Assembly: GCA_903842505.1 (NCBI GenBank)
Contig: CAIMMI010000350.1
Location: 1 to 61,801, forward strand
Origin: an uncultured Verrucomicrobiota bacterium
GTDB lineage: Bacteria; Verrucomicrobiota; Verrucomicrobiia; Limisphaerales; UBA9464
DNA length: 61,801 nt
Direction of reading: 5' to 3'
Below are positions 7,525 to 24,186 of this stretch, in pieces (within the stretch, counting starts at the first letter, position 1; every line of letters starts with the position of its first letter). Position numbers and translations under genes: made by a program. The notes under the pieces are model-generated. The model did no database searches, had not been told where the DNA came from, and worked only from the letters and a program-made list of their open reading frames with translations.

Positions 7525-7554
7525 TTGAATCAGGCACTCGCCCAGTGATATATT
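7525..7554 (+). promoter_or_regulatory. Putative sigma70-type promoter of the 7581 gene
   Basis: TTGAAT at 7525-7530, an 18-base spacer and TATATT at 7549-7554. This would give a leader of about 20 bases before the ATG at 7581, with AGGGG at 7568-7572 as ribosome binding site. The -10 lies in a small dyad (CCCAGTGATATATTGGG). Confidence 0.55.
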
Positions 7555-7580
7555 GGGTGAAGTCAGTAGGGGTAATTACT

Positions 7581-8300
7581 ATGAACAAGACCAAACTATC
7601 ATTCATTCTCGCGGTCGCCGCTGCAGCGTCGTCCGCCTCCGCCGCAACCGTGCTTGAGAGCTCGGCCCTCGTGCCTGCTGGATTCATTCCCGCTAATCAG
7701 CCGGGCGCGAACGGCAACACGACGACGACGCCGGCCAGCCTGTTGGTTGACTCGTTTGACAGCTCCTTGGGTTCGCTGAACTCGGTCACCTACACGCTGA
7801 GCTACTACAGCTACGGCGCTTACTCTGTCGCCAACGACACCGCGTCGAACCCCGGCCTGTACACGTTCACGTGGCAGCTGGGCGACTTGCTCAACAAGAA
7901 CACCCTGAACGAGCCGGGCGTCAACCCGGATCAGCTGTTCGCCGGCGTCCTCCAGAGCGACTCCGTCGCCGTCGCCAACAACTCGGTGGTCGTGGCGGGC
8001 AACACCAACCACAAGACCGAAACCTTCAACGCCGCGGCTCAGACGGTCGCAGCGTTCTTGGGCGACGGCATCACCCAGGTGACGTTCGTGTTCACCCCGA
8101 ACGCCACCAGCGGCATCAATGGTCCTCAGGGCACGATCCAGAACGCCAAGCCGGACGTGTTCTACGCCGCCAAGATCGACGTTACCTATGACTACACCCC
8201 GACGGGTGTGCCTGAGGCGTCCACGTACGCCGCGGGCGCCGTGGTCCTCGCCGGTGCGGGAATGATCCTGCGCCGCCGCATGGTTGCCGCGAAGGCCTGA
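7581..8300 (+). CDS. PEP-CTERM-like surface protein (VPEA tail)
   Basis: 239 aa from ATG 7581, chosen over an in-frame upstream codon because it has AGGGG 8 bases upstream and begins a clean signal peptide (MNKTKLSFILAVAAAASSASA). The mature part is Ser/Thr/Asn rich and beta-like, with no recognised enzyme. The C-terminus is tripartite: VPEAST, a hydrophobic helix (AAGAVVLAGAGMILR) and RRRMVAA. This layout is the PEP-CTERM sorting signal cut by an exosortase, but the usual VPEP is VPEA here. Own promoter and a strong terminator make it a single-gene, probably abundant, transcript. Its tail ends RRRMVAAKA, nearly identical to that of the protein at 32045-32905. Confidence 0.85.
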   Translation: MNKTKLSFILAVAAAASSASAATVLESSALVPAGFIPANQPGANGNTTTTPASLLVDSFDSSLGSLNSVTYTLSYYSYGAYSVANDTASNPGLYTFTWQLGDLLNKNTLNEPGVNPDQLFAGVLQSDSVAVANNSVVVAGNTNHKTETFNAAAQTVAAFLGDGITQVTFVFTPNATSGINGPQGTIQNAKPDVFYAAKIDVTYDYTPTGVPEASTYAAGAVVLAGAGMILRRRMVAAKA

Positions 8301-8331
8301 TCAACCAAAACCAGAAATCCCCTTCTGCCGG

Positions 8332-8361
8332 GCCGACCTTGGTGCACCAAGGTCGGCTTTT
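8332..8361 (+). terminator. Rho-independent terminator
   Basis: Stem GCCGACCTT (8332-8340) pairs with AAGGTCGGC (8349-8357), with the intervening ggtgcacc also partly self-pairing, followed by TTTTTCGTTTT. It ends the 7581 transcript. Confidence 0.9.
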
Positions 8362-8463
8362 TCGTTTTCAGGGAAGGCGATGCGCGCTTACGCGAGCATC
8401 AAACCGAGCACTGTTAGCCTCGGGCACGGTGTCCTGGCTGAATTGCTGGAAACTGCGAAGCTA

Positions 8464-8482
8464 CCCTCGACCACTTCGAGGG
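8464..8482 (-). terminator. Possible terminator hairpin for the LamG gene
   Basis: Perfect 7-base stem CCCTCGA/TCGAGGG with loop CCACT, 21 bases past the stop of the minus-strand LamG gene. The following T-run on the minus strand is poor, so termination is only suggested. Confidence 0.4.
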
Positions 8483-8502
8483 AGTGGCTCACTGCATCAA
8501 CC

Positions 8503-9732
8503 CTACGGAGTCTCTAGAACCCGAAAGATTCCCGGTTCATCGGTAACCTCCACATCTTGATAAACCGTGCTCTCCGTCGCCAGGAACGAGGATCCCACGT
8601 CGGTCCAGGTTTGGAGGTCCATGGTCTTTTGGAGTTTATAGGTAAATCCTGGAATCACCTGCATCTGAATCTCCACCTGCTTCACCATCATCCGGAGGGA
8701 AGGCACTCCAGGCGGGCCTGCGATCAGAACCCGCGGGACTGACATGTACTCACTACCCACGGACGTGATCTTCACCCCGGTCACAATTCCGTTCTGCACC
8801 GTCGCCACTCCAACGGCATTGGAACCACCGCCACCCAGAAAGTGCACTTTGGGAGGCGTCTGGTAGCCGAATCCGGGGTCCAGGATTTCCACGCCCACAA
8901 CAAACCCATTGACGACCGTGGCCTTGGCCGAAGCAGCGCGTGGAGTATTGCATTCAGCATGGATGAGGTCGGCTCCAACCCAACTTCCCAAGCTCGCCCC
9001 CCCGACCAAGACTCCGTGATTGCCCTTGCCACTGTCATCCGTTGGCGTGCTCCCGTCGAAAGTCCAACTGCCTGCCAGCGATGGATCCATCACCGACCCG
9101 CACCGATATTCCGAGCGGATTTCCTCGGCTGAAAGAGGCCGACTCCAGACACGGAGTTGGTCCATGGCCCCAGACGCGGCAGTGCCCGGGTCATTGGCAG
9201 GGTTCAGGTTGCCGAAAACCAAGGGTCGGGTTGATTGCCGAATTGCCTGTGAGTTGATCGGATTCCCCCCGGCGTCGACGGTCCGAGTCGCAGCCAACAC
9301 CCCGTTGGTAAAGAGCTTCAAGGCGCTGCTCGCCTGATCGTAGGTGGTGGCAAAATGCGTCCAGGTATTCGAGGCGACATTCGGTGCTGCAATCGTGGCC
9401 CACGTGTTGGCGCCAAGAAACAGCTGAAAACTCAGGGTCCGACCAGGAATGCCCTGAAGCTTCGACCAACTCAGCCAATACGACTGATCACTGGAACCGT
9501 TGAGGCCATCTCCCTTACCCAAAAACACCGCATTGATAACCCCGTTTTCGATTGGATAAATCCAACCCTCAATGGTGATTCCAGAAGGGTTCTGCAAACC
9601 AGAGTTGCTCGCCACCTGCACGAAACCACCCTTGTTGAGCAGGAGAGCCTTATTGGTGGTTTGCGCCTTCAGACTCACCGCGGCTGCGAGCACCAAAAGG
9701 CACCGGAGAACGATTCCAACGATTCGACGCAT
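8503..9732 (-). CDS. Secreted LamG-domain protein with FYRV-type C-terminal module
   Basis: 409 aa from the ATG at 9732, which has a GGAGAGGGG ribosome binding site directly upstream and starts a signal peptide (MRRIVGIVLRCLLVLAAAVSLKAQ). The open frame runs further upstream but only antisense to a sigma factor. Residues 25-230 form a LamG/concanavalin-like domain (ITIEGWIYP, WTHFATTYD, MDQLRVWSRPLSAEEIRSEY). A Gly-rich segment follows (GFGYQTPPKVHFLGGGGSNAVG). The last 60 residues (FTYKLQKTMDLQTWTDVG to GIFRVLETP) match a terminal module also seen on three other secreted proteins in the window. It probably acts at the cell surface, possibly binding a glycan. It is divergent from the ECF gene at 9823. 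Confidence 0.85.
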   Translation of the reverse strand: MRRIVGIVLRCLLVLAAAVSLKAQTTNKALLLNKGGFVQVASNSGLQNPSGITIEGWIYPIENGVINAVFLGKGDGLNGSSDQSYWLSWSKLQGIPGRTLSFQLFLGANTWATIAAPNVASNTWTHFATTYDQASSALKLFTNGVLAATRTVDAGGNPINSQAIRQSTRPLVFGNLNPANDPGTAASGAMDQLRVWSRPLSAEEIRSEYRCGSVMDPSLAGSWTFDGSTPTDDSGKGNHGVLVGGASLGSWVGADLIHAECNTPRAASAKATVVNGFVVGVEILDPGFGYQTPPKVHFLGGGGSNAVGVATVQNGIVTGVKITSVGSEYMSVPRVLIAGPPGVPSLRMMVKQVEIQMQVIPGFTYKLQKTMDLQTWTDVGSSFLATESTVYQDVEVTDEPGIFRVLETP

Positions 9733-9822
9733 ACCCCTCTCCTCGCCACGGGCGTGGGTCCCATTACACGATTTTTTCTGATTTCTTGAAACAGTCGCCA
9801 CGGGCGGAGCGATGGGGTAAGT

Positions 9823-10458
9823 GTGACGTTCGTGTCCCCCATGCCGGAAGATTCCCTGCCCACCCGGGTCAGCCTGTTGCGCCGACTCCGGGATCTGGCG
9901 GACGACGCGTCCTGGAAGGAGTTCTACGAGCGGTACCGGCGCTTCATCTTCCAGGCTGCCCGACGCAAGGGGCTCAGCGCGCAGGACGCCGAGGAAGTCC
10001 TGCAAGACACGATTGTTTCGGTGGCCCGGGGCCTTCCCAATTTTGTCTATAACCCCGACCTCTGCTCCTTCAAGGGATGGCTCATGACGATCACCCACCG
10101 TCGTGTGACGGACCAACTGCGCCGGCGTGGCCGTCAGGTCCCGTTGGCGGACACCGGCGGAGAGATTCCCGTCACCGGAGCGCCGATCGAATCCCCCTTT
10201 GATGCGGCATGGGAAGCTGCGTGGGAAAGCAATCTGCTGGATGCTGCGACGGATCGGCTCCGGTTGACGGTTTCCCCGAGGAATTTCCAGATCTTCGACT
10301 GGACGGTCCGGATGGGACGCTCCACGGGGGAGACGGCGGCCGCCTTCGCCATTTCGGCCAATCTGGTGCGGGTAACCAAGTTGAGGGTGCTGCTGAATCT
10401 GAAAAAGCACCTGCGGCAGTTGCGGCGCGAACCCTGGCCGAAAGGATGTCAGTCATGA
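9823..10458 (+). CDS. ECF-type RNA polymerase sigma factor
   Basis: 211 aa. Region 2 is recognisable (FIFQAARRKGLSAQDAEEVLQD, then CSFKGWLMTITHRRVTDQLRRR), and region 4 is a helix-turn-helix near the end (STGETAAAFAISANLVRVTKLRVLLNLKKHL). The start is GTG 9823 or ATG 9841; neither has an ideal ribosome binding site. The stop overlaps the next ATG (ATGA at 10455-10458), so it is coupled to the 55-aa gene and, through it, to the kinase. Such sigma/kinase neighbours are common in Planctomycetes and Verrucomicrobia, where phosphorylation may replace an anti-sigma factor. Its regulon is unknown. Confidence 0.9.
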   Translation: MTFVSPMPEDSLPTRVSLLRRLRDLADDASWKEFYERYRRFIFQAARRKGLSAQDAEEVLQDTIVSVARGLPNFVYNPDLCSFKGWLMTITHRRVTDQLRRRGRQVPLADTGGEIPVTGAPIESPFDAAWEAAWESNLLDAATDRLRLTVSPRNFQIFDWTVRMGRSTGETAAAFAISANLVRVTKLRVLLNLKKHLRQLRREPWPKGCQS

Positions 10459-10622
10459 ACTGGTTGTTGGCCATTCTCTGCTGGGTCTTGCGAATCCCGC
10501 AGGAGGCTCCTTGGAAACACGGGGCCCCGGCAGGCAAAGATCTCGACCGCGCTGCGGAACGCCGGGTGCGCCGAGCCATTGAACGGCGATTGACCGGGCG
10601 CTCCAGCCAGGGAACTGCATGA
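10455..10622 (+). CDS. Small 55-aa membrane peptide between ECF factor and kinase
   Basis: 55 aa and easily missed. It starts at ATG 10455 in an ATGA overlap with the sigma-factor stop (an in-frame ATG at 10446 is an alternative) and ends in another ATGA overlap with the kinase start at 10619. The double coupling is strong evidence for translation. The N-terminus is one hydrophobic helix (MNWLLAILCWVLRIP). The C-terminal half is basic and amphipathic (DLDRAAERRVRRAIERRL). I recognise no family. By position it could tether the sigma factor or kinase to the membrane, or act as a small anti-sigma factor; this is inference. Confidence 0.7.
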   Translation: MNWLLAILCWVLRIPQEAPWKHGAPAGKDLDRAAERRVRRAIERRLTGRSSQGTA

Positions 10623-12226
10623 GCGATCCCCTGCCGACCATTCCAGGTTACGTCTTGCTCACCCCCATTGGCCGAGGTGCCTATGGCGAGGTGTTCCTCG
10701 CGGAAGACGCGGCCGGGCGGCGGGTGGCCCTCAAGGTGGTCACCCCACGACCTGAACTCACCGACAAGATGCTCCAACGCGAGTTGGGGGGCCTCAAACG
10801 CTTCCTCGCCGTGGCGGAGAGCGACCCACATCTGGTCCGGATCCACGAACTGATCGAAAACCTGCCCTGTGGTGGGTTTGCCTATGCGATGGAGCTGGCG
10901 GATTCCATCCACGGCCACGGCGTGACGGACTACACCCCCCTCACCCTGCGCCACCGACTCAGGACTGCTGGCCGGTTGACCGTCAGCGAAAGCCTCCAAA
11001 TCGCCATCGGGCTGTGTGCGGCCCTGGAGCATCTGCACCGCCAAGGGCTGGTGCACCGCGACGTGAAGCCCGCCAATGTCATCTTTGTCCATGGTCAGCC
11101 CAAGCTGGCCGATCTGGGATTGATCAGCGGTGAAAGCGACTCCACCTCATCGGTCGGCACCCAGGGTTATCATGCCCCGGAGGGGACCCGGGGCCCCAAG
11201 GCGGACCTCTTCAGCCTCGGCAAAGTCCTGTACGAGATGGCGACGGGTTGTGACCGGCAGGATTTCCCGGAACTGCCGCCGGACTTTCCCACGTTCGCGG
11301 ATTCCAGGGAACTGCTCGGGTTGAATCCCGTGTTTGCCAAGGCCTGTGCCGCCAACCCGGACCGGCGGTATCCCAACGCAGGCAGGTTTCGACGGGATCT
11401 GCTGCTGCTTCAATCCGGCGTCTCCTTGTATCGGCAGCAGTGGATCCGGCGGGGACTGGTTGCCCTGCTGATCGTGGGCGGGGTTGGGGGATTGGGGATG
11501 GGGTGGTGGCGGCAGGAACAGGAGTCGCGCTTTTGGAGGACTTCGTCGCCCGTGGAACGGGTGAACCGGGCCTACCGTCCGGAGCACGCAGACTCCTGGC
11601 GGCGGCATTTCATACCCGCGCGTCCGAAAGGTACGAATCCACGCCAAATCGACCTGACCCGGCTTTACAACGGAGGGCTCAGCCAGTCGCTCTTCCTCAC
11701 CCTCAATCCCCGGGAGGCCATTGAAAACAATTGGGGCACGCTGCCCGCCGGGAACGTCACCTTGGGTGGGGTTCCCTTCGACATCCGTGGCGTGATCCAA
11801 TTGAACGGGCGAAACACAGAGGCCCGTATCGCCGGACTGATTCCTCGGTCGGTCCACATCCCCCTCGATCGTCCGCTTCAACGCCTCCACATCCTGCATG
11901 CCGTCCAATGGGGGGATCCCGTCGGGACGGTGGTGGCGAAATACCGGCTTCACTACACCGACGGCTCCACCGCAGAACTGCCCGTCGAGTTTGAGCGGGA
12001 CGTGATGGCCTGGTGGGTTGGTTGGAACCAACCCCATGGGGATTTGCCCAGAGCCAAGCGCGTGGCCACAGGGAGCAATGCCGCGCTGCCCGGCGACCAA
12101 TGGAGCCTCGCCCTGTACCTCCGAAGCTGGGACAACCCGCATCCCGAACGGCCCGTCGCCCGCGTGGAATTTGAATCCACGATGCAGAATTCGGCCCCGT
12201 TCATGGCGGGACTGACGGTCGAGTAG
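10619..12226 (+). CDS. Transmembrane Ser/Thr protein kinase with extracytoplasmic beta-rich domain
   Basis: 535 aa. Kinase domain at residues 10-270: glycine loop GRGAYGEV, the VALKVV lysine, HRDVKPAN catalytic loop and an APE-like APEG. The Mg-binding motif reads ADLG instead of DFG, which occurs in some active bacterial kinases. One membrane helix follows (GLVALLIVGGVGGLGMGWW, about 277-297). The outer 235 residues are beta-rich (LSQSLFLTLNPREAI, VPFDIRGVIQLNG, LHILHAVQWGDPVG, VARVEFESTM) and resemble galactose-binding/NPCBM-like sandwiches of carbohydrate-active proteins. This suggests a sugar or surface-ligand sensor that signals inward to the coupled ECF sigma factor. Confidence 0.88.
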   Translation: MSDPLPTIPGYVLLTPIGRGAYGEVFLAEDAAGRRVALKVVTPRPELTDKMLQRELGGLKRFLAVAESDPHLVRIHELIENLPCGGFAYAMELADSIHGHGVTDYTPLTLRHRLRTAGRLTVSESLQIAIGLCAALEHLHRQGLVHRDVKPANVIFVHGQPKLADLGLISGESDSTSSVGTQGYHAPEGTRGPKADLFSLGKVLYEMATGCDRQDFPELPPDFPTFADSRELLGLNPVFAKACAANPDRRYPNAGRFRRDLLLLQSGVSLYRQQWIRRGLVALLIVGGVGGLGMGWWRQEQESRFWRTSSPVERVNRAYRPEHADSWRRHFIPARPKGTNPRQIDLTRLYNGGLSQSLFLTLNPREAIENNWGTLPAGNVTLGGVPFDIRGVIQLNGRNTEARIAGLIPRSVHIPLDRPLQRLHILHAVQWGDPVGTVVAKYRLHYTDGSTAELPVEFERDVMAWWVGWNQPHGDLPRAKRVATGSNAALPGDQWSLALYLRSWDNPHPERPVARVEFESTMQNSAPFMAGLTVE

Positions 12227-12504: not shown

Positions 12505-12581
12505 TGGTAGGGGTGGTGGGGCTCGAACCCACAACCTGACCCTTATAAAGAGACTGCTCTGACCACTTGAGCTACACCCCC
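12505..12581 (-). tRNA. tRNA-Ile (anticodon TAT)
   Basis: Minus-strand cloverleaf of 77 bases with encoded CCA (12505-12507). Acceptor GGGGGTG/CACCCCT, D stem GCTC/GAGC, anticodon loop TTTATAA (anticodon TAT), T arm GTGGG-TTCGAGC-CCCAC. The anticodon stem GTCTC/GGGTC has one T-T mismatch and a G-T pair, and the first acceptor pair is G-T, so the gene is slightly degenerate. Most bacteria read AUA with a CAT tRNA carrying lysidine; TAT is rarer. The 3' end abuts the truncated GGCT gene. Confidence 0.88.
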
Positions 12582-12787: not shown

Positions 12788-13360
12788 ATGGGCTCGATCT
12801 CGTGCATTCTCGAACGGGTGGAGAAGGGCGAACTCGCGCCGGCCGAGGAATTGCTGCCGGTCGTCTATGACGAATTGCGGCGGCTCGCGACGGGCAAACT
12901 GGCCAGCGAAGCCGCGGGACAGACGTTGCAGCCCACGGCACTGGTACACGAGGCTTGGCTGCGTCTCGGGGGTGACCAACAACCGGCGTGGAAGAACCGC
13001 GGCCTGTTTCTGGCTTCCGCCGCCGAGGCGATGCGCCGGATCCTCGTGGATCGGGCCCGCCGTCGCCAGACGCTGAAACGGGGCGAGGGGGTTGAACACC
13101 TGGACCTCAACCAGATTGAACTCGCGGAAGAGGCCATGGACGGCGATCAGGTCCTGGCCGTGAACGACGCCCTCGAGAAGTTCGCCGCCGTGCACCCGCG
13201 CAAGGCCGAGTTGGTGAAACTGCGGTACTTTGCGGGCATGTCCTTCGATGAAGCCTCCGGCATCCTGGGAATCGCGGTTCCCACGGCGAAGGAATGGTGG
13301 GCCTATTCCCGTTCCTGGCTGCGCGTGGAAATACGCCGCGCCACCCGGCCCAATGCGTGA
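12788..13360 (+). CDS. ECF sigma factor of the planctomycete/verrucomicrobial type
   Basis: 190 aa. The N-terminus (ELLPVVYDELRRLATGKL, GQTLQPTALVHEAWLRLGG, FLASAAEAMRRILVDRARRR) is diagnostic of the ECF subfamily modelled as TIGR02999 in Planctomycetes and relatives. Region 4 is ELVKLRYFAGMSFDEASGILGIAVPTAKEWWAYSRSWLR. It ends 27 bases before the WD40 kinase, so the two form an operon. The upstream gap 12582-12787 shows no other gene; its promoter may be autoregulated, but no convincing motif was seen. Confidence 0.93.
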   Translation: MGSISCILERVEKGELAPAEELLPVVYDELRRLATGKLASEAAGQTLQPTALVHEAWLRLGGDQQPAWKNRGLFLASAAEAMRRILVDRARRRQTLKRGEGVEHLDLNQIELAEEAMDGDQVLAVNDALEKFAAVHPRKAELVKLRYFAGMSFDEASGILGIAVPTAKEWWAYSRSWLRVEIRRATRPNA

Positions 13361-13387
13361 TTCCAAGCCATCTCGTCCCCACCTCCC

Positions 13388-16300
13388 ATGAACACCCGGG
13401 GTGACCAGGAGGAAGGCGTTTTCCGCGAGGCCGTCCGACTGGCGGCCGGGCCAACCCGTGAAGCGTACCTGGCCATTGCCTGTGCTGGCGATCCAAGCCT
13501 CCGGGAGCGTATCGAGGAATTGCTGGGGGCGCATGAGACAGCGGACAACTTCCTCGAACCCGAGTCGGGCCCGCTGGCGGGGATGCCCGGACTGGGCCGC
13601 GCAACAAGCCGCACCATCGGTCGATATGAACTGCTCGAAACCCTCGGTGAAGGCGGCTTCGGAGTCGTCTATCTGGCCCGCCAGCGTGAGCCGGTGGACC
13701 GGATGGTGGCGTTGAAGATCCTCAAGCCCGGAATGGACAGCCGCGCGGTGGTGGCGCGGTTTGAAGCCGAGCGCCAGGTACTGGCCCTCATGGAGCACCC
13801 GTCCATCGCCCGGGTCCTCGACGGAGGCACCACCGATTCCGGGCACCCGTACTTCGTCATGGAACTGGTCCGGGGCGAGCTGATCACCCACTCCTGTGAC
13901 CGCGGCCGACTTCCGATCGGGCGTCGCCTCGAACTCGTCATCGAAGTCTGCCACGCGGTTCAGCATGCCCACCAGAAGGGCGTCATCCATCGGGATCTCA
14001 AGCCGGCCAATGTTCTGGTCACGGAGGTGGACGGCAGGGCCGTCCCCAAGGTGATTGATTTCGGCATCGCGAAAACGCTGGAAAGCGCGTCAGGGGATGA
14101 CGCGGGAGTCACCCGGCCCGGACAGTTTCTGGGTACCCCGTCTTATATGAGTCCGGAGCAGGTGAGGATGGCCGGGCGGGATATTGATACGCGGACCGAC
14201 GTCTACAGCCTGGGTGTATTGCTCTATGAATTGCTCACGGGATGCCTCCCATTTGATGCCCAGGCACTCATGGCGGAAGGGGTGGACCGGGTCCGCGATG
14301 CGATCCTGCTCCAGGAGCCCCCACGACCGTCGGTCCGGCTGGGACGGCTGACCGTTGATGCCCTGAAAACGGTGGCGACCCAACGCGGCACCGAGGGGCC
14401 AAAGCTGCGGAATTGGATCGCCGGAGACCTGGACTGGATCGTGATGCGGTGCCTCGAAAAGGAGCGAGGCCGACGCTATGAAACAGCTCATGAACTCGCG
14501 TTGGATTTGCGACGGTTTCTGGATCGCGAACCCGTGATCGCCCGACCGCCGAGCGGACTCTACCGGTTCCAACGGTTGGTCCAGCGCCAGAAGCTGGCCT
14601 TCTCGGCGGCCGCCGCCGTGCTGGCCTCCCTGCTCATCGGGCTCGGGGTCTCGACCTGGCTCTGGAACCAGGAGCGAAGCGCCCGGTGGCGCGCAGTGGA
14701 GGCCCAGCAGGAAACGAAGGCGGCCCTGGCGCGGTCGGATTTCCTTCAGGCAGGCCGCCTTGCCGAAGCCGGGCAAGACGCGGACGCGCTGGCGTATCTG
14801 GCTCGGAGCGTCCAGGGAAACCCCACCTATCGGGCTGCCGGCATCCGCCTGCTGACCCTGCTGGCCTATAATTCGTGGGCCACTCCCACGCTTGTCTTGA
14901 GGCACGAAGTGTCCGTCCTCGATGCGCGATTCAGTGCGGATGGATCCCAACTGCTCATCGGTCTAGCCGACGGCACGGTCCGGCTCTGGGATTTGGCGCA
15001 CGGCCAACCCCTGATCAGCCCTGCGGAGCCCTGCTCCGGGGTGATCACCACCGGGTTCAGTCCCGATGGAACCGCCTTCGCGATCGGATCCTGGGACCAG
15101 ACGGCCCGGGTTTGGGACGTCAAGACCGGACGTCCCCGAACGGTTTCGCTGAAGCACGAAGGCGCTGTTTATTGCACCGCCTTCAGCCCGGACGGACGGT
15201 ATCTCGTGACGGGCTCCGCCGATCACCAGGCCCGGGTATGGGCGTTGGACACCGGCCGACTCGTGGTTGGCCCCCTACCTCACGATGGCGTGGTGAAGGA
15301 CGTGCAGTTCAGCCCCGACGGCAGCCGGATCGCGACGGCCTCGGAGGATTCCGCAGCCCGGATCTGGGACGCCCGCAGCGGCGCGTTGATCTCCGGGGCG
15401 CTCCGGCACGTCAGCCAGGTGAACGCAGTCCGATTCAGTCCCGACGGACTCCGCCTGGCTACCGCGTCCGCCGATCACAGCGCGGGTCTCTGGGATGTCC
15501 GCACCGGACAGGCCTTGTGCGCTCCGTTGGCGCACGCCCACTCCGTGACGGCCGTGCGTTTCAGCCCGGATGGCTCGAAGATCGTCACCGCCTCCCTGGA
15601 TGCGACCGCCAGGATCTGGGACGGGACGAATGGCCGTCCGCTGGTGCCTGCCCTGGAACATGGGGGCCCCGTGTTGATGGCGGAATTCAGCCCGGACAGT
15701 CAGCAGGTCCTGACTGCCTCAGAAGATCAGCTTACCCGAATTTGGGACGTGCGCTCCGGACGCCGGTTGATGGAACCGGTGAAATGGCACGCCCCGATCC
15801 GTGCGGCGCACATCAGCCCCGACGGACACCAGTGGGTGACGGCATCGGGCACTGAAGTCCGGGTACACGCGCGACCCGGCCCCGCCGCGTTGCCGCTTCG
15901 GGTCAATGACGGTGCGTTCACCGTGCAGGCGCGATTCAGTCCGGACGGTGAACGTTTTGTCACCGGTTCATCAGACCTCACGGCACGCATCTTCGACGCC
16001 CGCACCGGCGCGCCGGTGGGACAACCCATGAGACACGAACGCCAGGTCAACAGCGCCCAATTCAGTCCGGATGGGCGCTGGATCCTGACGGCGTCGATGG
16101 ACCACACGGCGCGCCTGTGGGACGCCCGGGATGGCCGGCCAGTCGGCGTTCCCTTGCAGCACGAAGGCCAGGTGGATGCGGCGGAGTTCGGTCCGGATGG
16201 ACGCCTCTTCCTCACCGTTTGTCACGACGCCGGGGTGCGGGTTTGGGACACAAAAACGCAAACTCACACGGTGAATCGCCTGGGACAGGCCGGCTCGCGG

Positions 16301-17755
16301 ATGACCGCCCATTTCAGCCCGGACAGTCAGCGGATCGTCACCGGTTCGGACGATGGAACCGCGCAGGTCTGGGAGGCCCGGACCGGCACCAGGGTAGGAG
16401 CGCTCATGCGCCATCCCCAAGCCATCCATGATGTGCAATTCAGTCCGGATGGATGGCAGGTGATCACCGCCTCGTCGGATGGATCAATCCGGCTCTGGGA
16501 GGCAGCGAGCGGCCAACCGCTGACCTCGCCAATGATGCACGGAACCGCGGTCTATTCGGCCGAATTCAATGACGTCGGCCAACGCGCGGTCACCGCCGGA
16601 AGGGATGGTCGGATCCGCGTCTGGAACCTTGGGAACGGCCAGACGCTGGCCGAGCCCTATGTCCAGGGTGCTTCGAGTCATCCGCGATTCAGTCCCGCCG
16701 GCCACGTGATCGCCTCGGCGGGCTCGGATGGTTGGCTGCGATTGTTGGATCCGGAGAGTCTGCAACCGGTGGCGTCCGCTTTGCGACAGGAAGGACGGAC
16801 CGTCACAACCACGTTCAGCCCCGACAGCCGGCGCATCCTGAGCGCAGCGAACGGTGTTTGGCTCTGGGATTTCCCGTTGGGCGTCTCGAGGTGTCCGGCC
16901 TGGCTGGTGCCTTTGGCGGAAGCCATCAGTGGGGAAGTCCTGAACGAACAGGGCGTCCTCGTCCCCAGCCGGCGCGACCCGGCGGCATTGATGGCGGGCG
17001 TTCGGGAACAACTCGCTCAGGCGGCCCCACAGGACGATTGGGCGGTCTGGGGCCGGTGGTTCTTCGCACCGGCGGAACAGCGGCCGATTTCTCCGCACAG
17101 CGGCCTGACGATGGCTCACTACATCCGGGACCGCGTCGCCGGCGGAACCGACTCGGGGCGGGAGGAAGTGCTGCGGCTCGCCTCGGGGCGGCCGGAGTGG
17201 CAGGCCCTGATCCCCACGCGGCAGCCTGGCCCCTCGACGGCTGCCACGAGTCCCTCGGCGCCATCCCCCGGCGCGCCGGCGTCCCATGTGATCTTCGACG
17301 GGGAACTGCGGAACGGGTGGGAAGATTACAGTTGGTGTGAGGTAACCTACGCCGCCGTCGACCCGAAACATCCGGGCACGAATGAACTCACGGTCAAGGT
17401 CGGTCCTTGGCAGGCCTTCTACTTGCACCACGCCCCATTCGATTCCTCGCACTACGATCGCATCTCGATCTGGATCCATGGAGGTGGTTCCCCAAAGCAG
17501 TTGCTCCTCATTGGCACCGCACAGCAGGTTCCGCAGCCCTACATTCCCCTGACACTGCCCGCGAATACCTGGATCCAGGTCGTGCAATCGCTCGCAACCC
17601 TGCACGTCCAGGGCAATTCCGCCTTTGACGGCTTCTGGTTGCAGGACAACACGGGCACCCGTCAGGGGGCTTTCCACATCCGCCGCATCGAGCTGCTGGC
17701 ACCCGGTACGGCCGCGGAGCCCGCTTCCAGGCCCTCCGTCACCCCTCCGCGCTGA
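13388..17755 (+). CDS. Transmembrane Ser/Thr kinase with 16 WD40 repeats and C-terminal beta domain
   Basis: 1455 aa. An N-terminal 75 residues precede the kinase domain (about 79-370): GEGGFGVVY, VALKILK, HRDLKPAN, DFG, SYMSPEQ. One membrane helix lies at about 405-427 (AAAAVLASLLIGLGVSTWLW). Outside, about residues 495-1170 hold some 16 WD40 blades, each with an FSPDG or FSPDS turn and a W-D/E ending, enough for two propellers. The last 150 residues (ELRNGWEDYSWCEV, YDRISIWIHGGG, FHIRRIELL) form a jelly-roll-like domain similar to modules attached to cellulases. That makes glycan sensing plausible. The gene lies between its ECF factor and a GH44 glucanase. Confidence 0.92.
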   Translation: MNTRGDQEEGVFREAVRLAAGPTREAYLAIACAGDPSLRERIEELLGAHETADNFLEPESGPLAGMPGLGRATSRTIGRYELLETLGEGGFGVVYLARQREPVDRMVALKILKPGMDSRAVVARFEAERQVLALMEHPSIARVLDGGTTDSGHPYFVMELVRGELITHSCDRGRLPIGRRLELVIEVCHAVQHAHQKGVIHRDLKPANVLVTEVDGRAVPKVIDFGIAKTLESASGDDAGVTRPGQFLGTPSYMSPEQVRMAGRDIDTRTDVYSLGVLLYELLTGCLPFDAQALMAEGVDRVRDAILLQEPPRPSVRLGRLTVDALKTVATQRGTEGPKLRNWIAGDLDWIVMRCLEKERGRRYETAHELALDLRRFLDREPVIARPPSGLYRFQRLVQRQKLAFSAAAAVLASLLIGLGVSTWLWNQERSARWRAVEAQQETKAALARSDFLQAGRLAEAGQDADALAYLARSVQGNPTYRAAGIRLLTLLAYNSWATPTLVLRHEVSVLDARFSADGSQLLIGLADGTVRLWDLAHGQPLISPAEPCSGVITTGFSPDGTAFAIGSWDQTARVWDVKTGRPRTVSLKHEGAVYCTAFSPDGRYLVTGSADHQARVWALDTGRLVVGPLPHDGVVKDVQFSPDGSRIATASEDSAARIWDARSGALISGALRHVSQVNAVRFSPDGLRLATASADHSAGLWDVRTGQALCAPLAHAHSVTAVRFSPDGSKIVTASLDATARIWDGTNGRPLVPALEHGGPVLMAEFSPDSQQVLTASEDQLTRIWDVRSGRRLMEPVKWHAPIRAAHISPDGHQWVTASGTEVRVHARPGPAALPLRVNDGAFTVQARFSPDGERFVTGSSDLTARIFDARTGAPVGQPMRHERQVNSAQFSPDGRWILTASMDHTARLWDARDGRPVGVPLQHEGQVDAAEFGPDGRLFLTVCHDAGVRVWDTKTQTHTVNRLGQAGSRMTAHFSPDSQRIVTGSDDGTAQVWEARTGTRVGALMRHPQAIHDVQFSPDGWQVITASSDGSIRLWEAASGQPLTSPMMHGTAVYSAEFNDVGQRAVTAGRDGRIRVWNLGNGQTLAEPYVQGASSHPRFSPAGHVIASAGSDGWLRLLDPESLQPVASALRQEGRTVTTTFSPDSRRILSAANGVWLWDFPLGVSRCPAWLVPLAEAISGEVLNEQGVLVPSRRDPAALMAGVREQLAQAAPQDDWAVWGRWFFAPAEQRPISPHSGLTMAHYIRDRVAGGTDSGREEVLRLASGRPEWQALIPTRQPGPSTAATSPSAPSPGAPASHVIFDGELRNGWEDYSWCEVTYAAVDPKHPGTNELTVKVGPWQAFYLHHAPFDSSHYDRISIWIHGGGSPKQLLLIGTAQQVPQPYIPLTLPANTWIQVVQSLATLHVQGNSAFDGFWLQDNTGTRQGAFHIRRIELLAPGTAAEPASRPSVTPPR

Positions 17756-17941
17756 GCCACCTCCCCGGGGTGACTCCAGCAACGCGCGTCACCCATCGGG
17801 TTTCCCTGCCTGGTTCCACCCCGGCACAACGACGGAAAAAAGATCCATACTTTTTGCCGGCGAATCTCGCCTTCTGGGGTGTACGGCAGCTCTGCCCACG
17901 AACGGGGTGAGCCTCAGCCGACAGAAAAGCGCTGTTGCATC

Positions 17942-20900
17942 ATGAAAACTCCCCTCGCTCCACCGGGACCAGGCTCGCATCCGGATCTCCACCGGATCCC
18001 CGTCTGGCAAGGCCTGGCGCATTTCCGCCTGACCCTGACCAGCGCGTTGCTTCTGGCTCTGACCCTGCTCACGAGTCGGACCACAGCCGCGCCTCCGGCC
18101 ATCGCTTCGTTTGGTGCCACCCAGCCCAACGTGAAACCCGGCGGATCCTCCACTCTCAGCTGGACCGTCACCGGTGCCGACACCGTGAGCATCGACCAGG
18201 GCATTGGCTCCGTCGGTGGCAGCAGCACGTCAGTCACCCCAGCCCAAACCGTCACCTACACGCTGACCGCCTCGAACAGCGACGGCACCAGCCGGGCGGA
18301 AACCACGGTCAACGTCAGTCCTCTGAACTACCTCCTGGCCTATGACTCCGGGCTGCAAGGGACTTGGCGGCGCGAGACCTGGGAGGCCGCCCCGCTTTTC
18401 ACCGATTTCGCCGCCACGGCACCCGGCCGCACCGGCAACGCCATCGAGGTCCGCTTTTCGCGGAACAACGGCTACCACGCCTTCGGCATCGGGGGTCTCG
18501 ACGTGTATCTGAATGAATTCCGCACCTTCGAGTTCGACATCTACTTCGAAGCGGACTCCACGGGTGAGGACGAACTCACCTTCATCCTCGGTGACGCCGG
18601 ATTCGCCGACGAACCTCGAGTCGTGGATCTCATTCCCGGCTGGGCCTCAATGTCCCCCGCCCAGAAGCTTGGCCATTGGCATCACGCCACGCTGACGTTC
18701 GCCGACATCCACCCCAACGTGACCAGCGCGAATCGCTTTCTCTGGTTCAACAACGGCACGATGCTCCCCCACTTCCGCCTCGCGGACGTCAAGCTCGGCT
18801 GGACGACCGACACCGTGGCTCCCACGGTCACCACGGTCATTCCCACCTACGACCCGGCCACCGACCAGCTCACCCTGAGGTTCAACACCGATGAACCCGC
18901 GAACTTCCGGGTAGAGTACGGGGTGACCCACTTCGCCCACTCGGTCCAGGGTGACTACCACGACTGGTCCACCAACCACACCGCGGTGCTCACCGAGGTC
19001 ACCCCCGGGACCGTCAACCAATACCGTATCCTGGTGGCGGACCACCACACCGATCCGAACGCGGATTCCAACCTCGGAACCTATAGCGGCACCTATGCGG
19101 CACCGGTTTCCACCAATGCCCCCCGTGCGGTCATTCCCGCCTCGGTCACTACCCATACCTTCCAGATCTATGGCTCCACACTGGCCTCAGGGTGGGGCTT
19201 GCGGAACTGGGAAACCGGCACGCTGTTCAGCGATTTCGCCGCCACCGCACCGGGTCGCACCGGAACGGCCATCGAAGTCCGCTTTGGCAATCAAAACCAC
19301 TGGAACGGGTTTGGCGTCGGCGCCGATGCCTTTTATTTCAATGAATTCCGAACCCTGGAGTTCGACATCTACTTTGACCCGGACTCGACCGGCAATGAGG
19401 ACCTGGGATTGGTGATTGGAGATGGGGGGGCCACCGACAACCTGCGGCTCGTCGACCTGATCCCAGGCTGGTTCACGTTGACCCGTGCGCAGCGGTTCGG
19501 ACATTGGTTCCACGTCGCCGTGGACTTCCCCCAGGTCCACCCCCGCGTACCAGCCTTCGACCGACTCATCTTTTTCAACAACAGCGAGAACCTGCCGCAC
19601 TTTCGCCTCGCCGACATCAAGATGGGCTGGCTTGACGATCTCACGGCTCCGTTGATTACCCTGACCTCGGCCAGCCTGAACCCGCAGTACACCCAACTGA
19701 CCCTGGGTTTCCGCACCGACGAAACCACGCTGTACCGGATCGAATACGGCACCAGCGACTACAGCAAGCACGTGGAGGGAACGACCAACAACTGGGCCAC
19801 CCTGCGCTCAATCCCCCTGGCCGGCCTGACCCCTGGCTCAACGGTCCAGTACCGGATCCTTGCCTGGGATCATCGGTACGATCCGACGGCCGTGCCCAAT
19901 CAAAGCATCCTCGAAGGAACCTACGTGATTCCTCCGGCGCCGGTCACCGCACCGCTGATCTCGGGTCTTGCGGTCGACGCCGTCGCGGGCACCCGCGCCA
20001 CCCTGGTCTGGCGCAACAACCGTCCCTGCACGGCCCAATTGACCTACCACAAAGCCGGCGGCCCCAACCTGACCCGCCATTATCCGGATCTCGTCAGCGA
20101 CCACGCCGCGGTCATGGACCTGTTGGAACCGCTCACGTCCTACGTCGCCACGGTCAATGCCACGGACGCCTTCGGCAATTCCGCATCCCAATCGATCGCG
20201 TTCACGACGACTGCCTCCAGTGCCTCCACCGTCTCCATCGTCATCGATCCCGCGACCACACGTCCCATCTCACCGTGGATCTACGGCATCAACTTCTACC
20301 ACGCCATTCCCGATGCGCCCCGGAATCTCACCTTGAACCGGGCCGGCGGCAATCGCTGGACCGCCTACAACTGGGAGAACAATGCCTCCAATGCCGGCAA
20401 TGATTGGTTCTACAGCAACGATGACTACCTCGGCGGCGGTCTCCAACCCGGCGAAGCCCTGCGCAGCCTCATCGACCACGACCGTTCCCGCAGCAACGCC
20501 AGTCTGGTCACCTTCCAACTCCAGGGCTATGCGGCGGCGGACAAGAATGGTTTCGTCGACATCTACGATCCCAACCACCTCAGCAATCGCTTCAAACAGG
20601 TCGTCTACCACAAGGACACCCCGTTCAGCACGACGCCAGATCTCACCGACCCGTTCGTCTACGTCGATGAGTTCTTCTGGAACCTCGGAAGGTCCTTCGC
20701 CACGGACATTTTTGGTGACCCGAACGTTCCAACCTTCGTCACGCTCGATAACGAACCGGAACTCTGGCCGCACACCCATGCCGAGATCCAATCCGCCCCC
20801 CCAGGTGCCGACGACTACATCCAGCGCTCGATCGAACTGAGCAGCGCCCTGAAGAAGGTGTCGCCCTCAGTGCAGATCTTTGGCCCGGCGCACTATGGCT

Positions 20901-22294
20901 TCCTGGGGCTCTACAACTGGCAGATGGCCGCCGGTTTCAATGCCGGCTATTGGTTCACCGACAAATACCTCGGGGATATGAAGGCGGCGTCCGACGCCGC
21001 CGGACACCGTCTGCTCGATGTCTATGATTTCCACTGGTACTCCGAGGCTCGCGTCGATGGCAAACGGATCGGGGGCTATACCAACGCCGTGCTCTCCAAT
21101 GCCCAGATCCAGGGCATTGTGCAGAGCCCCCGGAGCTTGTGGGATCCCACCTACCGCGAGGACAGCTGGGTGGCTGATGCCCTCGGTGGCCCGATCCATA
21201 TCCTCAACCGCCTCCAGACCAAGATCGATGCAACCTGGCCCGGCACGAAGCTGGCCATTTCGGAGTACGGCAATGGCGGTGACAATCATATCGCTGGTGC
21301 CATCGCCGAGGCGGACAATCTGGGCATCTTTGGCGCCCAGGGCGTCTTTCAAGCCTCCTTCTGGCCCACGAGCCCCAGCTACCCGTTCATTCTCGCCGGC
21401 TTCAAGATGTACCGTGATTTCGACGGCAATCTGGGCAGCTTCGGCGATATCTCCCTCTCCTCGGTTTCCAGCGATCCCTCCCTGGTATCCACCTATGTCA
21501 GCCACGACTCGCAACGCACGAATCGTTATGTCCTCGTGGCCATCAACCGCTCGATCACAGTCCAGGATGTCGCCTTCAAGGGCCTCGGCATTTCGGGGGC
21601 GGCCAGGCTGTATCGTGTGGAGGGGACGCAGACCACCCCCGTATTCGTCGGGGAAACCTTTGCCAGCCTCAACACCTGGGTCGTCACCCTGCCCGCCCTG
21701 AGCGTCACGACGATCGAGATCCTGGATGGGCAGGCCACCGGCTCCGATCCCACCGCTCCGCTTGCCGTTGAGGATGCGCTCAGTCGCCCACAGAACACCC
21801 GCATCGCCAAGGTCCGCCTCACCGACCTGCTGGCCAACGACTCCAGCCCCGCCGGACTCCCATTGTCGATCGCCGGCGTCGGCGGTGCCACGCCTCCGGG
21901 CGCTACCGTGGAAATCATCGGCAACTTCGTCGTCTACACCGCCCCAACCGCCACAGCCGGCAACGGAGGGTTTGAGTATACCCTCAGCGATGGCAACGGT
22001 GGCCATCACGTCCAAGGCACTGTCTCGGTGACGCAAACCGCGAGCCCGAATTCCCCCACCGCCGCACCCAATCCCCTGGCGATCAGCAGGAGCGGCAACG
22101 ACATCCTCGTCACGTTCATGTGCGTGCCCGGAGGCCGTTATCGGGTCCAATACACGACCGACAGCGGCCCCTATACCTGGCACGAGTTCGCCTCCCCGGC
22201 CATCCACAGCGCCGCCACCAACGGTGTCTTCAGCCACCGGGATGTCCACCCTACAGACCCCGTGCGGTTCTACCGCGCCGTGTCGAATCCCTGA
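17942..22294 (+). CDS. Multidomain secreted GH44 endoglucanase/xyloglucanase
   Basis: 1450 aa from ATG 17942 (an in-frame upstream extension lacks a signal peptide). Order: signal peptide, Ig-like domain (50-130), a carbohydrate-binding-like domain, FN3-like, a second copy of that domain, two FN3-like domains, GH44 catalytic domain (about 765-1270), cadherin-like domain, and the FYRV-type terminal module. GH44 is shown by FYHAIPDAPRNLTLNRAGGN and YNWENNASNAGNDWFY. The predicted acid/base is Glu938 (DNEPEL) and the nucleophile Glu1108 (ISEYGNGG), 170 residues apart as in known GH44 enzymes. Expected substrates are cellulose or xyloglucan beta-1,4 chains. It follows the WD40 kinase by 186 bases. 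Confidence 0.92.
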   Translation: MKTPLAPPGPGSHPDLHRIPVWQGLAHFRLTLTSALLLALTLLTSRTTAAPPAIASFGATQPNVKPGGSSTLSWTVTGADTVSIDQGIGSVGGSSTSVTPAQTVTYTLTASNSDGTSRAETTVNVSPLNYLLAYDSGLQGTWRRETWEAAPLFTDFAATAPGRTGNAIEVRFSRNNGYHAFGIGGLDVYLNEFRTFEFDIYFEADSTGEDELTFILGDAGFADEPRVVDLIPGWASMSPAQKLGHWHHATLTFADIHPNVTSANRFLWFNNGTMLPHFRLADVKLGWTTDTVAPTVTTVIPTYDPATDQLTLRFNTDEPANFRVEYGVTHFAHSVQGDYHDWSTNHTAVLTEVTPGTVNQYRILVADHHTDPNADSNLGTYSGTYAAPVSTNAPRAVIPASVTTHTFQIYGSTLASGWGLRNWETGTLFSDFAATAPGRTGTAIEVRFGNQNHWNGFGVGADAFYFNEFRTLEFDIYFDPDSTGNEDLGLVIGDGGATDNLRLVDLIPGWFTLTRAQRFGHWFHVAVDFPQVHPRVPAFDRLIFFNNSENLPHFRLADIKMGWLDDLTAPLITLTSASLNPQYTQLTLGFRTDETTLYRIEYGTSDYSKHVEGTTNNWATLRSIPLAGLTPGSTVQYRILAWDHRYDPTAVPNQSILEGTYVIPPAPVTAPLISGLAVDAVAGTRATLVWRNNRPCTAQLTYHKAGGPNLTRHYPDLVSDHAAVMDLLEPLTSYVATVNATDAFGNSASQSIAFTTTASSASTVSIVIDPATTRPISPWIYGINFYHAIPDAPRNLTLNRAGGNRWTAYNWENNASNAGNDWFYSNDDYLGGGLQPGEALRSLIDHDRSRSNASLVTFQLQGYAAADKNGFVDIYDPNHLSNRFKQVVYHKDTPFSTTPDLTDPFVYVDEFFWNLGRSFATDIFGDPNVPTFVTLDNEPELWPHTHAEIQSAPPGADDYIQRSIELSSALKKVSPSVQIFGPAHYGFLGLYNWQMAAGFNAGYWFTDKYLGDMKAASDAAGHRLLDVYDFHWYSEARVDGKRIGGYTNAVLSNAQIQGIVQSPRSLWDPTYREDSWVADALGGPIHILNRLQTKIDATWPGTKLAISEYGNGGDNHIAGAIAEADNLGIFGAQGVFQASFWPTSPSYPFILAGFKMYRDFDGNLGSFGDISLSSVSSDPSLVSTYVSHDSQRTNRYVLVAINRSITVQDVAFKGLGISGAARLYRVEGTQTTPVFVGETFASLNTWVVTLPALSVTTIEILDGQATGSDPTAPLAVEDALSRPQNTRIAKVRLTDLLANDSSPAGLPLSIAGVGGATPPGATVEIIGNFVVYTAPTATAGNGGFEYTLSDGNGGHHVQGTVSVTQTASPNSPTAAPNPLAISRSGNDILVTFMCVPGGRYRVQYTTDSGPYTWHEFASPAIHSAATNGVFSHRDVHPTDPVRFYRAVSNP

Positions 22295-22345
22295 GTGAAG
22301 CTCGAAACCTATTCCTCAAATCACCTCTCAAGGAATTGCCTCATC

Positions 22346-23098
22346 ATGAAAACCCTCGTCCCCCAGGCTGCCACCGCCCTCTCAGTCCTGCTCGTCACGG
22401 CTGCCACCGGCCGCGCCGCCATCATCGTCGAGAATTATGGACCGCATTCCGTCGGCTTCGAGATTCCCGACAATCAAGCGGTGTTGACCTCATTTCTCCA
22501 CCGGATCACGACGTCGGACATTCAATCCCTCACCGAGGTAATGATCTCCTTCGAGTTGACTGGCACCACCGTTGGCAGCGGTTTCGCGAGCGACATGTTC
22601 GCCTCCTTGTTGAAGAGCCCCGTCAACACCACACCGACGACCGGGGATCCCTCAGCCGTTCTTTTGAACCGCGTCGGCGTCAGCTTGGACAACCCGCTTG
22701 GCCATGCCTACGACGGTTGGCGTGTGACGCTCAGTGACACCGCCAGCGGCGACATCCACCTCGCCTATCAGGCCAGCGGCATCCTGACCGGCCTTTATCA
22801 GCCCGATGGCCGCATCGACCCCACCGATGTGCTGCGCCCCTCGTTGCTCAACCTCTTCATCGGCGGGACTGGCAACGGGGATTGGTGGTTCAACGTCGGT
22901 GACCTCTCCAGCGGAGGCACCATGCAACTCGTCCATTGGAGCCTGACTTTGATCGGTGACAACACCGTGTCCGTCGATGCCGGCGTGCACGCCGTGCCGG
23001 AGGCACCCACCTGGATCCCTGGCTTCGGACTGCTCGCGCTGACCGGAATCACGACATGGAGACGGTATCGGAAGGGTGCCTCCCAACCGCTCCGTTGA
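22346..23098 (+). CDS. PEP-CTERM-like secreted protein (VPEAPTW tail)
   Basis: 250 aa from ATG 22346, which has AAGGA upstream; a frame extension to 22295 has none. Signal peptide at MKTLVPQAATALSVLLVTAATGRA. The middle is beta-rich (SFELTGTTVGSGFASDMF, GWRVTLSDTASGDIHL, HWSLTLIGD), like proprotein-convertase-P-type modules. The end, VPEAPTW, a hydrophobic helix and WRRYRKG, is a PEP-CTERM signal. It lies 51 bases after the GH44 stop and may be co-transcribed, so it could be a partner displayed with the enzyme. Confidence 0.85.
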   Translation: MKTLVPQAATALSVLLVTAATGRAAIIVENYGPHSVGFEIPDNQAVLTSFLHRITTSDIQSLTEVMISFELTGTTVGSGFASDMFASLLKSPVNTTPTTGDPSAVLLNRVGVSLDNPLGHAYDGWRVTLSDTASGDIHLAYQASGILTGLYQPDGRIDPTDVLRPSLLNLFIGGTGNGDWWFNVGDLSSGGTMQLVHWSLTLIGDNTVSVDAGVHAVPEAPTWIPGFGLLALTGITTWRRYRKGASQPLR

Positions 23099-23291
23099 TC
23101 GACACTCAGCCCGGACTCCATGAGCACGGTCCGCCCGCAATGGGTGGGCCATCGCCTTGCCATCGCCTGGTCGGGATGTCTGATCCGATCCAGTTTCACT
23201 GGAAGGAGGCGGTAGACGTTGAGCCTCTCAATGCGCTCACGAAGCGGCACGGCGTTTGCCACCCGCCAGGAAGCGCAACCGCTCCAGGTCC

Positions 23292-23783
23292 CTAACGCTG
23301 AGCCCTGTTGAACTGGGCATCGCCAACCTTGCACGTCTGATAAGCCAGAAACATCAGCAGAAATACTGCGATCCCCGTAAACCAACGCTGCCAGTTGATT
23401 TTGGATGCCTGATTTTTCGCACGCTCTTCGGCGAGGCGATTTACCTCGTCCGCCTGTCGCTGCGAATCTGCCGCCAGTTTCCCGAGGGCTTCGCCATTCG
23501 TTTTGAGGGACTGCTGGATCTGTCCAAGAGAGTGGGCGTTCCCTTCGGTCGTCGCACTGAGCAAGAGCTTGCTGAGCCTGCCGTTCTCTTCGGCAAGCTT
23601 CATCATGGCCTCGGCCCTTTGCAGATCGAGGGCGGAGCGTGCCCGCAATGCCCTCAGGTCCTGCGGAGCAACCGCGTCCGGGGGCTGAAACCCCATCCAA
23701 AGCAGGAAAACCGCCAAGCCGAGGTAGGCCAATCCGGCAACGAAGGGAGGAATGGATCGAGGCCGGTTCAGTGATCGGTTCAT
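23292..23783 (-). CDS. Hypothetical two-helix membrane protein with coiled coil
   Basis: 163 aa from ATG 23783 (upstream frame extension is not supported). Two membrane segments (PFVAGLAYLGLAVFLLWMGF and WFTGIAVFLLMFLAYQTC) flank about 90 residues of charged helix with heptad-like spacing. I recognise no family. The Shine-Dalgarno is weak. The gap to the left (23099-23291) and the 317-base gap to the right (23784-24100) hold no further gene; the right gap has a 12-base tandem ttgttactttcg near 24020-24045. Confidence 0.6.
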   Translation of the reverse strand: MNRSLNRPRSIPPFVAGLAYLGLAVFLLWMGFQPPDAVAPQDLRALRARSALDLQRAEAMMKLAEENGRLSKLLLSATTEGNAHSLGQIQQSLKTNGEALGKLAADSQRQADEVNRLAEERAKNQASKINWQRWFTGIAVFLLMFLAYQTCKVGDAQFNRAQR

Positions 23784-24100: not shown

Positions 24101-24186
24101 TGGTGCCGGCGGAGGGACTTGAACCCCCACGCCCTTTCGGGCAACAGATTTTGAGTCTATCGCGTCTGCCATTTCGCCACGCCGGC
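24101..24186 (-). tRNA. tRNA-Leu (anticodon CAA)
   Basis: Minus-strand class II tRNA, 86 bases with encoded CCA. Acceptor GCCGGCG/CGCCGGC, anticodon loop CTCAAAA (CAA) in stem ATAGA/TCTGT, long variable arm (TGCCCGAAAGGGCG) and a standard T arm (GGGGG-TTCAAGT-CCCTC). Confidence 0.95.

Follow-up and report, generated by a model that had tools for sequence, protein, structure and literature searches.

The window analysed here, a stretch of 61,801 nucleotides (contig CAIMMI010000350.1 of assembly GCA_903842505.1) from an uncultured Verrucomicrobiota bacterium of the order Limisphaerales, carries four plus-strand genes in a row (positions 12788-23098), encoding an extracytoplasmic function (ECF) sigma factor, a serine/threonine kinase, a glycoside hydrolase of family 44 (GH44) and a PEP-CTERM-like protein (Table 1). 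The genome sampled comprises 5.2 Mb in 362 contigs, of which the window is contig C350. A first-pass annotation had named these four genes at about these coordinates, and all four stand, on the plus strand; the ECF, kinase and GH44 genes each score above curated hidden Markov model (HMM) cut-offs, and the PEP-CTERM-like label is the least firm. The kinase ends in a region that, on sequence grounds, is a family-8 carbohydrate-binding module (CBM8), and the association of this module with a kinase, a sigma factor and a glucanase-type enzyme is the subject of the analysis.

The kinase and its C-terminal carbohydrate-binding module

The kinase is of the Hanks type, with a Pkinase domain (E 2.6e-43) and intact catalytic motifs (GEGGFGVVY, VALK, HRDLKPANV and DFG). 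A single hydrophobic segment begins at residue 403, its more basic flank, by eye, lying on the kinase side. The WD40 region spans some 650 residues and contains 13 stretches recognised by Pfam, its repeats recurring at 126 nt or close to multiples of that spacing. An RsgI-type anti-sigma domain did not appear for the kinase among the best 25 of 57 families, and the predicted cytoplasmic part is a protein kinase. The WD40 arrays of such kinases are mostly predicted to be periplasmic in related bacteria, as far as the available part of the source describes (PMC11032199). Because a single membrane segment is predicted here, the C-terminal module is expected in the periplasm and not at the cell surface.

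Pfam gave no match within the C-terminal 166 residues of the kinase, where the first-pass annotation had noticed a resemblance to jelly-roll modules of cellulases. That resemblance is well founded. Residues 1299-1437 match DdCBM8 (Protein Data Bank (PDB) entry 7t7y) at E 2.8e-6 in a single-sequence phmmer search of the PDB and at E 1.6e-24 with a 22-sequence profile, for which 7t7y was the sole match up to E 1. An AlphaFold2 model from two sequences was poor (mean predicted local distance difference test (pLDDT) score 51), and Foldseek with this model returned 7t7y as its top match (E 6.7e-5) and the only one under 1e-3. The prospect that the C-terminus lacks a carbohydrate-binding fold, which the annotation had itself raised, was examined in this way, and the annotation's reading of the C-terminus survived. 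With the same poor model, VIA gave Z 7.5 for 7t7y and 8.2 for a xylanase Xyn10B entry; family assignment by VIA was dropped, as the rows at Z 7-8 were tied across several CBM families.

The four contact positions of DdCBM8, W572, W574, Y600 and Q686, align with Y1314, W1316, W1341 and Q1419 of the kinase; two are identical and two are Tyr/Trp exchanges, and W1316 and Q1419 occupy near-invariant alignment columns. In DdCBM8, W572A and Y600A abolished binding and Q686A weakened it, R634A and F608A had no effect, and a W574 mutant was not obtainable; cellulose, glucomannan, beta-glucan and xyloglucan were ligands and xylan was not, and the module proved to be a polymer binder to which the tested oligosaccharides did not bind, according to the accessible text of that study (PMC9079177). 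Because DdCBM8 bound none of those oligosaccharides, a polymer is expected as the signal and fragments of oligosaccharide size are not. The earlier proposal of a surface sensor for polysaccharide fragments is therefore retained in part: the kinase does carry a CBM8, but neither small fragments nor a surface location is expected. The module probably senses a plant-type polysaccharide. Between two kinase copies it is under purifying selection (dN 0.037, dS 0.221), with a dN/dS of about 0.17 versus about 0.24 for the WD40 region. It is the single CBM8 copy in the window genome, and no relative of it was found on viral contigs among 35 candidate stretches.

The best database match of the kinase (locus L032) is 92% identical to it over residues 1-1454, and within the sequence covered for the 80 loci matching the kinase, CBM8 was seen in this locus only. 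Within the order, sibling kinases turned up in 34 of 293 genomes (the window genome counted, here and below) when the segment between the WD40 region and CBM8 was used as the query. Five siblings end in a domain homologous to the C-terminus of a second kinase in the window (phmmer E 4.9e-17 to 1.6e-28); other tails contain GWLPxGW, a weak DUF642/CBM4_9-like stretch (below cut-offs), TPR or TPR-like repeats, or almost nothing. Because the sibling tails vary in this way, the kinase C-terminus has the look of an input module that can be exchanged; CBM8 aside, sugar binding by several of these tails is a guess. One sibling WD40 kinase (L140, G164:C500) has a tail with an M60 peptidase domain above the Pfam cut-off. 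A structure model of the C-terminal domain of the second window kinase was left unused (mean pLDDT 40).

Partner genes and recurrence of the block

The sigma factor matches PF07638 at E 2.9e-49 and TIGR02999 at 183.8 bits, above the cut-off of 126.15. Its region 2.2 reads QPTA, with T50, where canonical ECF factors carry the acidic DAED, and the gene of the adjacent Hanks-type kinase starts 27 nt after its own. Similarity to the window ECF was used to collect 42 homologous ECF open reading frames (ORFs) from the 80 kinase-match loci; a Thr aligns with T50 in 40 of them (the other two are gapped there) and a kinase ORF lies at most 400 nt away for 33, counts that are not independent because the set was gathered by that similarity. 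In the described ECF43 pairs, region 2.2 of EcfP reads STTA and the factor is inactive until PknT phosphorylates the second Thr, and that of EcfK reads QATE, with phosphorylation of T51 by PknS, as given in the available portions of the sources (PMC8999054, PMC13147305). By analogy with these kinase-activated factors, and from its own motif, the window ECF is probably activated by phosphorylation at T50. The activation by phosphorylation that the first-pass annotation had proposed gains from this motif and these precedents; a direct transfer by the neighbouring kinase would be the predicted route.

A second ECF/kinase pair lies directly upstream in the window (9823-12226, plus strand). Its sigma factor (9823-10458) retains an acidic motif, QDAEEVLQD, and the two neighbouring pairs are for this reason probably under different control.

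The third gene likewise bears out the earlier reading of a GH44 enzyme beside the kinase on the same strand. Its product matches PF12891 at 150.9 bits (cut-off 25.1) and is the only GH44 match in the genome; the solved GH44 structure 2e0p (CtCel44A) matches at E 5.9e-93, and the xyloglucanase Cel44C matches as well. The catalytic glutamate motifs DNEP (acid/base) and ISEYGNGG (with the nucleophile motif SEYG) align with 2e0p. Since the solved GH44 relatives are named endoglucanase and xyloglucanase, DdCBM8 ligands overlap GH44 substrates. The enzyme has no CBM8 of its own; a module of about 160 amino acids is present twice instead, in copies 54% identical to each other. Common ancestry of this module and the kinase CBM8 was considered and found no support: the best BLASTP value was E 0.085, although just two sequences were compared.

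The fourth protein owes its label to a tail recognised by eye (VPEAP, a hydrophobic stretch and RRYRK); it missed all HMM cut-offs, with no PF07589 match up to E 1. Two exosortases are encoded in the genome (PF09721, above cut-off), and an orthologue with the same type of tail follows the GH44 gene in a second genome. Used as a query, the protein had no match beside other GH44 or CBM8 genes among the matches listed.

CBM8 occurs 22 times in 16 of 57 relatives. The ORFs of 21 copies (20 regions), and that of the remaining copy (G006, L216), had no kinase or WD40 match, and many CBM8 ORFs begin with a signal-like segment by eye. The module precedes the catalytic domain in seven of seven GH44 genes above cut-off in these relatives, one of them split by TGA; a match under the cut-off (G044) is excluded from this count. 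Across the order, CBM8 was found at 127 places in 85 of the 293 genomes and GH44 at 50 places above cut-off in 47 (five matches under the cut-off excluded), with a CBM8 at most 1.5 kb upstream on the same strand at 39 of the 50. The other 11 comprise the window's own gene, four more belonging to the same subtype, and a further six, which are fragments, lie near contig starts or have no detected module. Of the 127 CBM8 places, a subset of 49 ORFs (45 distinct genes) was checked, without a kinase or WD40 match in any. The window enzyme groups with those of G278, G172, G113 and G221 (143-169 bits), which also have the module of about 160 residues and no CBM8. In this block, then, the module that usually sits on GH44 enzymes in the order sits on the kinase next door, and the enzyme is without it. 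This arrangement is suggestive of a functional link between the two, but not conclusive, because the window's GH44 subtype lacks CBM8 elsewhere too.

Several further observations concern these families. CBM8-GH44 is a common architecture in the order (e.g., L113-L116, L121 and L125), and for several other CBM8 proteins Pfam gave nothing up to E 0.01 (L112, L117, L118, L122, L123, L126 and L128). At L112, which comes from a genome in the same family, a CBM8 protein without a Pfam domain (8977-11526, plus strand) is preceded at about 0.3 kb by an unfused kinase ORF on the same strand (6489-8693), and no homologue of the window ECF was matched there. Two GH44 genes without a clear CBM8 also have kinase frames nearby: at L223, kinase and WD40 frames lie close by on the opposite strand, and at L225, a kinase frame follows directly downstream, at the contig end. 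CBM8 has been reported on GH51_3 enzymes, in the available part of one account (PMC13386854).

The block recurs in a second genome (G297), to which L032 belongs, on two contigs that are 92.2% and 92.6% identical to the window. One contains the codons for the last 36 ECF residues, the kinase gene and the first bases of the GH44 gene; the other runs from the GH44 start through the PEP-CTERM-like gene. Judging from where each ends, the two contigs would adjoin. Identity stops sharply at window position 23318, past the last gene (matched span 13250-23318; L241, L235), and in the 12.8 kb preceding the block the matches to G297 are 10 short stretches at 67-82%, none comparable to the block. Among alignments with E up to 1e-20, the other 32 between the two genomes are 65-85% identical, with a range of 65-80% for the 15 that reach 500 nt or more. 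G297 was sampled over 548 kb for this, and the window genome over 522 kb with the window itself counted; five of the 40 stretches from the window genome read N and gave nothing.

Composition and distribution were also compared. Tetranucleotide content served to check whether the block contigs had been mis-binned into G297. By this measure the 2.6-kb tail beyond the block on the G297 GH44 contig is more G297-like than any of 171 window-genome pieces, and at least as G297-like as 123 of 184 G297 pieces. In the window, the block leans toward its own genome less than any of 26 same-size pieces, and seven of the 26 are as far from the genome mean as the block is. Searches of congeners gave no GH44 match in eight and no match to the kinase segment in seven; CBM8 was present in one of eight, within a non-kinase protein. 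Integration repeats joining the flanks were absent among 20 of 24 direct-repeat families. The patterns of identity, composition and distribution fit best with, and suggest, a block transferred as one unit; contamination is less likely, with the reservation that the G297 kinase contig has no flank outside the block.

A possible polysaccharide-responsive cassette and its alternatives

We modestly favour the view that the block is a polysaccharide sense-and-degrade cassette. From the observed gene order, domains, motifs and co-occurrence we infer a ligand, a membrane topology, a mode of kinase activation, phosphorylation at T50 and a set of promoters, as follows. The kinase would span the inner membrane, its catalytic domain facing the cytoplasm and its WD40 propellers and CBM8 lying outside. 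A beta-1,4-linked polymer (glucomannan, beta-glucan, xyloglucan or cellulose chains) would reach the periplasm and bind CBM8; binding would alter the assembly of the kinase and render it active. The kinase would then phosphorylate T50 of the ECF factor, providing a negative charge needed for binding to core RNA polymerase, and the loaded sigma factor would transcribe the GH44 gene, the PEP-CTERM-like gene and, probably, its own operon. On the current view, Verrucomicrobia and Planctomycetes import whole polysaccharides into the periplasm, and such uptake would let a periplasmic CBM8 meet its polymer.

Several observations weigh against this sense-and-degrade view. A periplasmic CBM8 is out of reach of insoluble external cellulose unless the polymer enters the periplasm. 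The kinase-CBM8 fusion is rare: it was absent from the 29 sibling WD40-kinase tails that were read (two cut by the locus end), and only one other genome with it was found. Support for coupling of the parts therefore comes from that one genome, where no more than the last 36 residues of the ECF factor are seen, and not from independent lineages. The phosphorylation precedent is itself mixed, as T51A leaves EcfK functional and T106 is a second site, in the accessible text of the reports (PMC8999054, PMC13147305). Induction of the enzyme and a displayed partner, as the first-pass annotation had it, agrees with the conserved gene order, but no shared promoter motif was found for the ECF and GH44 genes, the best upstream 14-mers being no better than the best of 20 shuffles. 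The GH44 gene has a 186-nt leader of its own and therefore need not belong to the ECF-kinase operon.

The leader and the missing promoter motif would be expected if the kinase and the ECF factor cooperate, with CBM8 signalling to a distant regulon, and the GH44 and PEP-CTERM-like genes are merely neighbours under their own control. Also in keeping with this, the regions read around the four other GH44 genes of the same subtype contain no homologue of the window ECF, and no GH44 was matched at the 29 kinase loci listed in addition to L032, many of which have an ECF gene alongside. The same four regions, three of them with no kinase either, count against the sense-and-degrade view as well. Control of this kind is nevertheless rather unlikely: the four genes stand together again in G297, where the remaining sampled DNA is 65-85% identical, and GH44 enzymes of the order usually carry the very module that ends the kinase.

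Another account would have the cassette serve the cell's own matrix, CBM8 monitoring an exopolysaccharide that the GH44 enzyme trims, with the PEP-CTERM-like protein as a matrix or surface component. PEP-CTERM/exosortase systems are tied to exopolysaccharide, two exosortases are present, and the best NCBIfam match of the GH44 protein is EpsB, which has a role in exopolysaccharide. This account is unlikely: the EpsB score of 174.1 bits falls far below the cut-off of 1250, so that the protein does not qualify for that family, the nearest solved relatives are endoglucanases and a xyloglucanase, and the four-gene block, the part of the window annotated for this, contains no polysaccharide synthesis gene. 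Less probable still is that CBM8 is a passive tether or a remnant and that a protein is what the WD40 propellers sense. Kinases of this kind commonly have WD40 arrays and no CBM8 (also PMC11032199, as far as its accessible part goes), and W572 is replaced by Tyr (Y1314), which also counts against polysaccharide sensing. All four contact positions are aromatic or identical, however, and CBM8 has the lower dN/dS of the two regions.

The block can be compared with several known systems, in so far as the available parts of the sources describe them. The ECF43/Hanks kinase pairs EcfP-PknT (Vibrio parahaemolyticus) and EcfK-PknS (Xanthomonas citri) likewise place an ECF factor beside a membrane Ser/Thr kinase and have a QTTA-like Thr motif in place of DAED in region 2.2; their inputs are polymyxin and amoeba predation, and no CBM input is described in those parts. 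The window ECF is likened to ECF43 by its motif and adjacent kinase, not by ECF-group models. In SigI/RsgI of Clostridium thermocellum, the alternative sigma factor for glycoside hydrolases is governed by a membrane protein whose C-terminus is an extracytoplasmic CBM (PMC4711584). RsgI is an anti-sigma factor that is cleaved in its membrane helix, whereas in the window a kinase bears the CBM and the sigma factor is of the ECF type. In ECF52 (SCO4117), a periplasmic carbohydrate-binding domain is fused to the sigma factor itself and no kinase is described. DdCBM8, from Dictyostelium CelA, shares sequence family, binding positions and a probable beta-sandwich with the window module, but belongs to a GH9 enzyme and not to a signalling protein. 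The WD40 Ser/Thr kinases of Planctomycetota and related bacteria share the order Pkinase, transmembrane segment and WD40 array, the latter mostly predicted to be periplasmic (PMC11032199); the siblings read differ in having no CBM8, save the orthologue at L032. No description of a CBM-bearing sensor kinase was found among the papers searched, judged by titles and abstract openings.

It is possible, if on balance doubtful, that the block is a transferable four-gene cassette in which the substrate-binding module of a glycoside hydrolase family has come to sit on a membrane kinase, and this kinase activates a sigma factor by phosphorylating it. If so, it would be a kinase counterpart of biomass sensing by RsgI, and a second solution, with a kinase in place of a proteolysed anti-sigma factor, to the problem of inducing a glucanase by a polymer that is kept out of the cytoplasm. 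The CBM-bearing kinase would be new, and would join two known designs, the kinase-activated ECF43 factor and the CBM-bearing anti-sigma factor RsgI. It would also exemplify a broader group of ECF-linked WD40 kinases whose C-terminal sensors can be exchanged. Because CBM8 is a characterised family with mapped contacts and the likely output gene is adjacent, signal, kinase, phosphosite and target are directly testable.

Features of the window

Table 1. Positions of the block, its domains and neighbouring features in the window
Feature	Position	Strand	Evidence
ECF sigma factor, 190 aa	12788..13360	+	PF07638 E 2.9e-49; TIGR02999 183.8 bits
Hanks-type Ser/Thr kinase, 1455 aa	13388..17755	+	Pkinase E 2.6e-43; 13 WD40 stretches; catalytic motifs
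Predicted single membrane segment of kinase, about residues 403-425	14594..14662	+	Hydropathy 2.27 at residue 403
WD40 repeat region of kinase, about residues 510-1165	14915..16882	+	Pfam WD40 matches
CBM8 module of kinase (by sequence), residues 1299-1437	17282..17698	+	phmmer, profile search and Foldseek, all 7t7y
Secreted multi-module GH44 glycoside hydrolase, 1450 aa	17942..22294	+	PF12891 150.9 bits; N-terminal hydrophobic segment
Module of ~160 aa in GH44 protein, copy 1	18323..18808	+	54% identical to copy 2
Module of ~160 aa in GH44 protein, copy 2	19148..19636	+	54% identical to copy 1
GH44 Pfam core; DNEP inside, SEYG just past its end	20384..21049	+	PF12891; alignment to solved GH44
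PEP-CTERM-like secreted protein	22346..23098	+	C-terminal tail by eye; orthologue in same position elsewhere
Second window kinase; non-WD40 C-terminal domain common to five WD40 kinases elsewhere	10619-12226	+	phmmer
tRNA-Ile, before block	12505-12581	-	ARAGORN
tRNA-Leu, after block	24101-24186	-	ARAGORN

A sigma-70 scan found one promoter-like site versus 1.7 expected, and nine terminator-like sites were found versus 7.5 expected. ARAGORN calls the anticodon of the tRNA-Ile before the block as TAT, which is rare on tRNA-Ile among bacteria; at the G297 counterpart (L240, about 7123), ARAGORN calls no tRNA and the anticodon is apparently CAT by eye. Another PEP-CTERM-like secreted protein is encoded at 7581-8300 (plus strand) of the window, with a choice-of-anchor E domain at 45 bits against a cut-off of 23.8.

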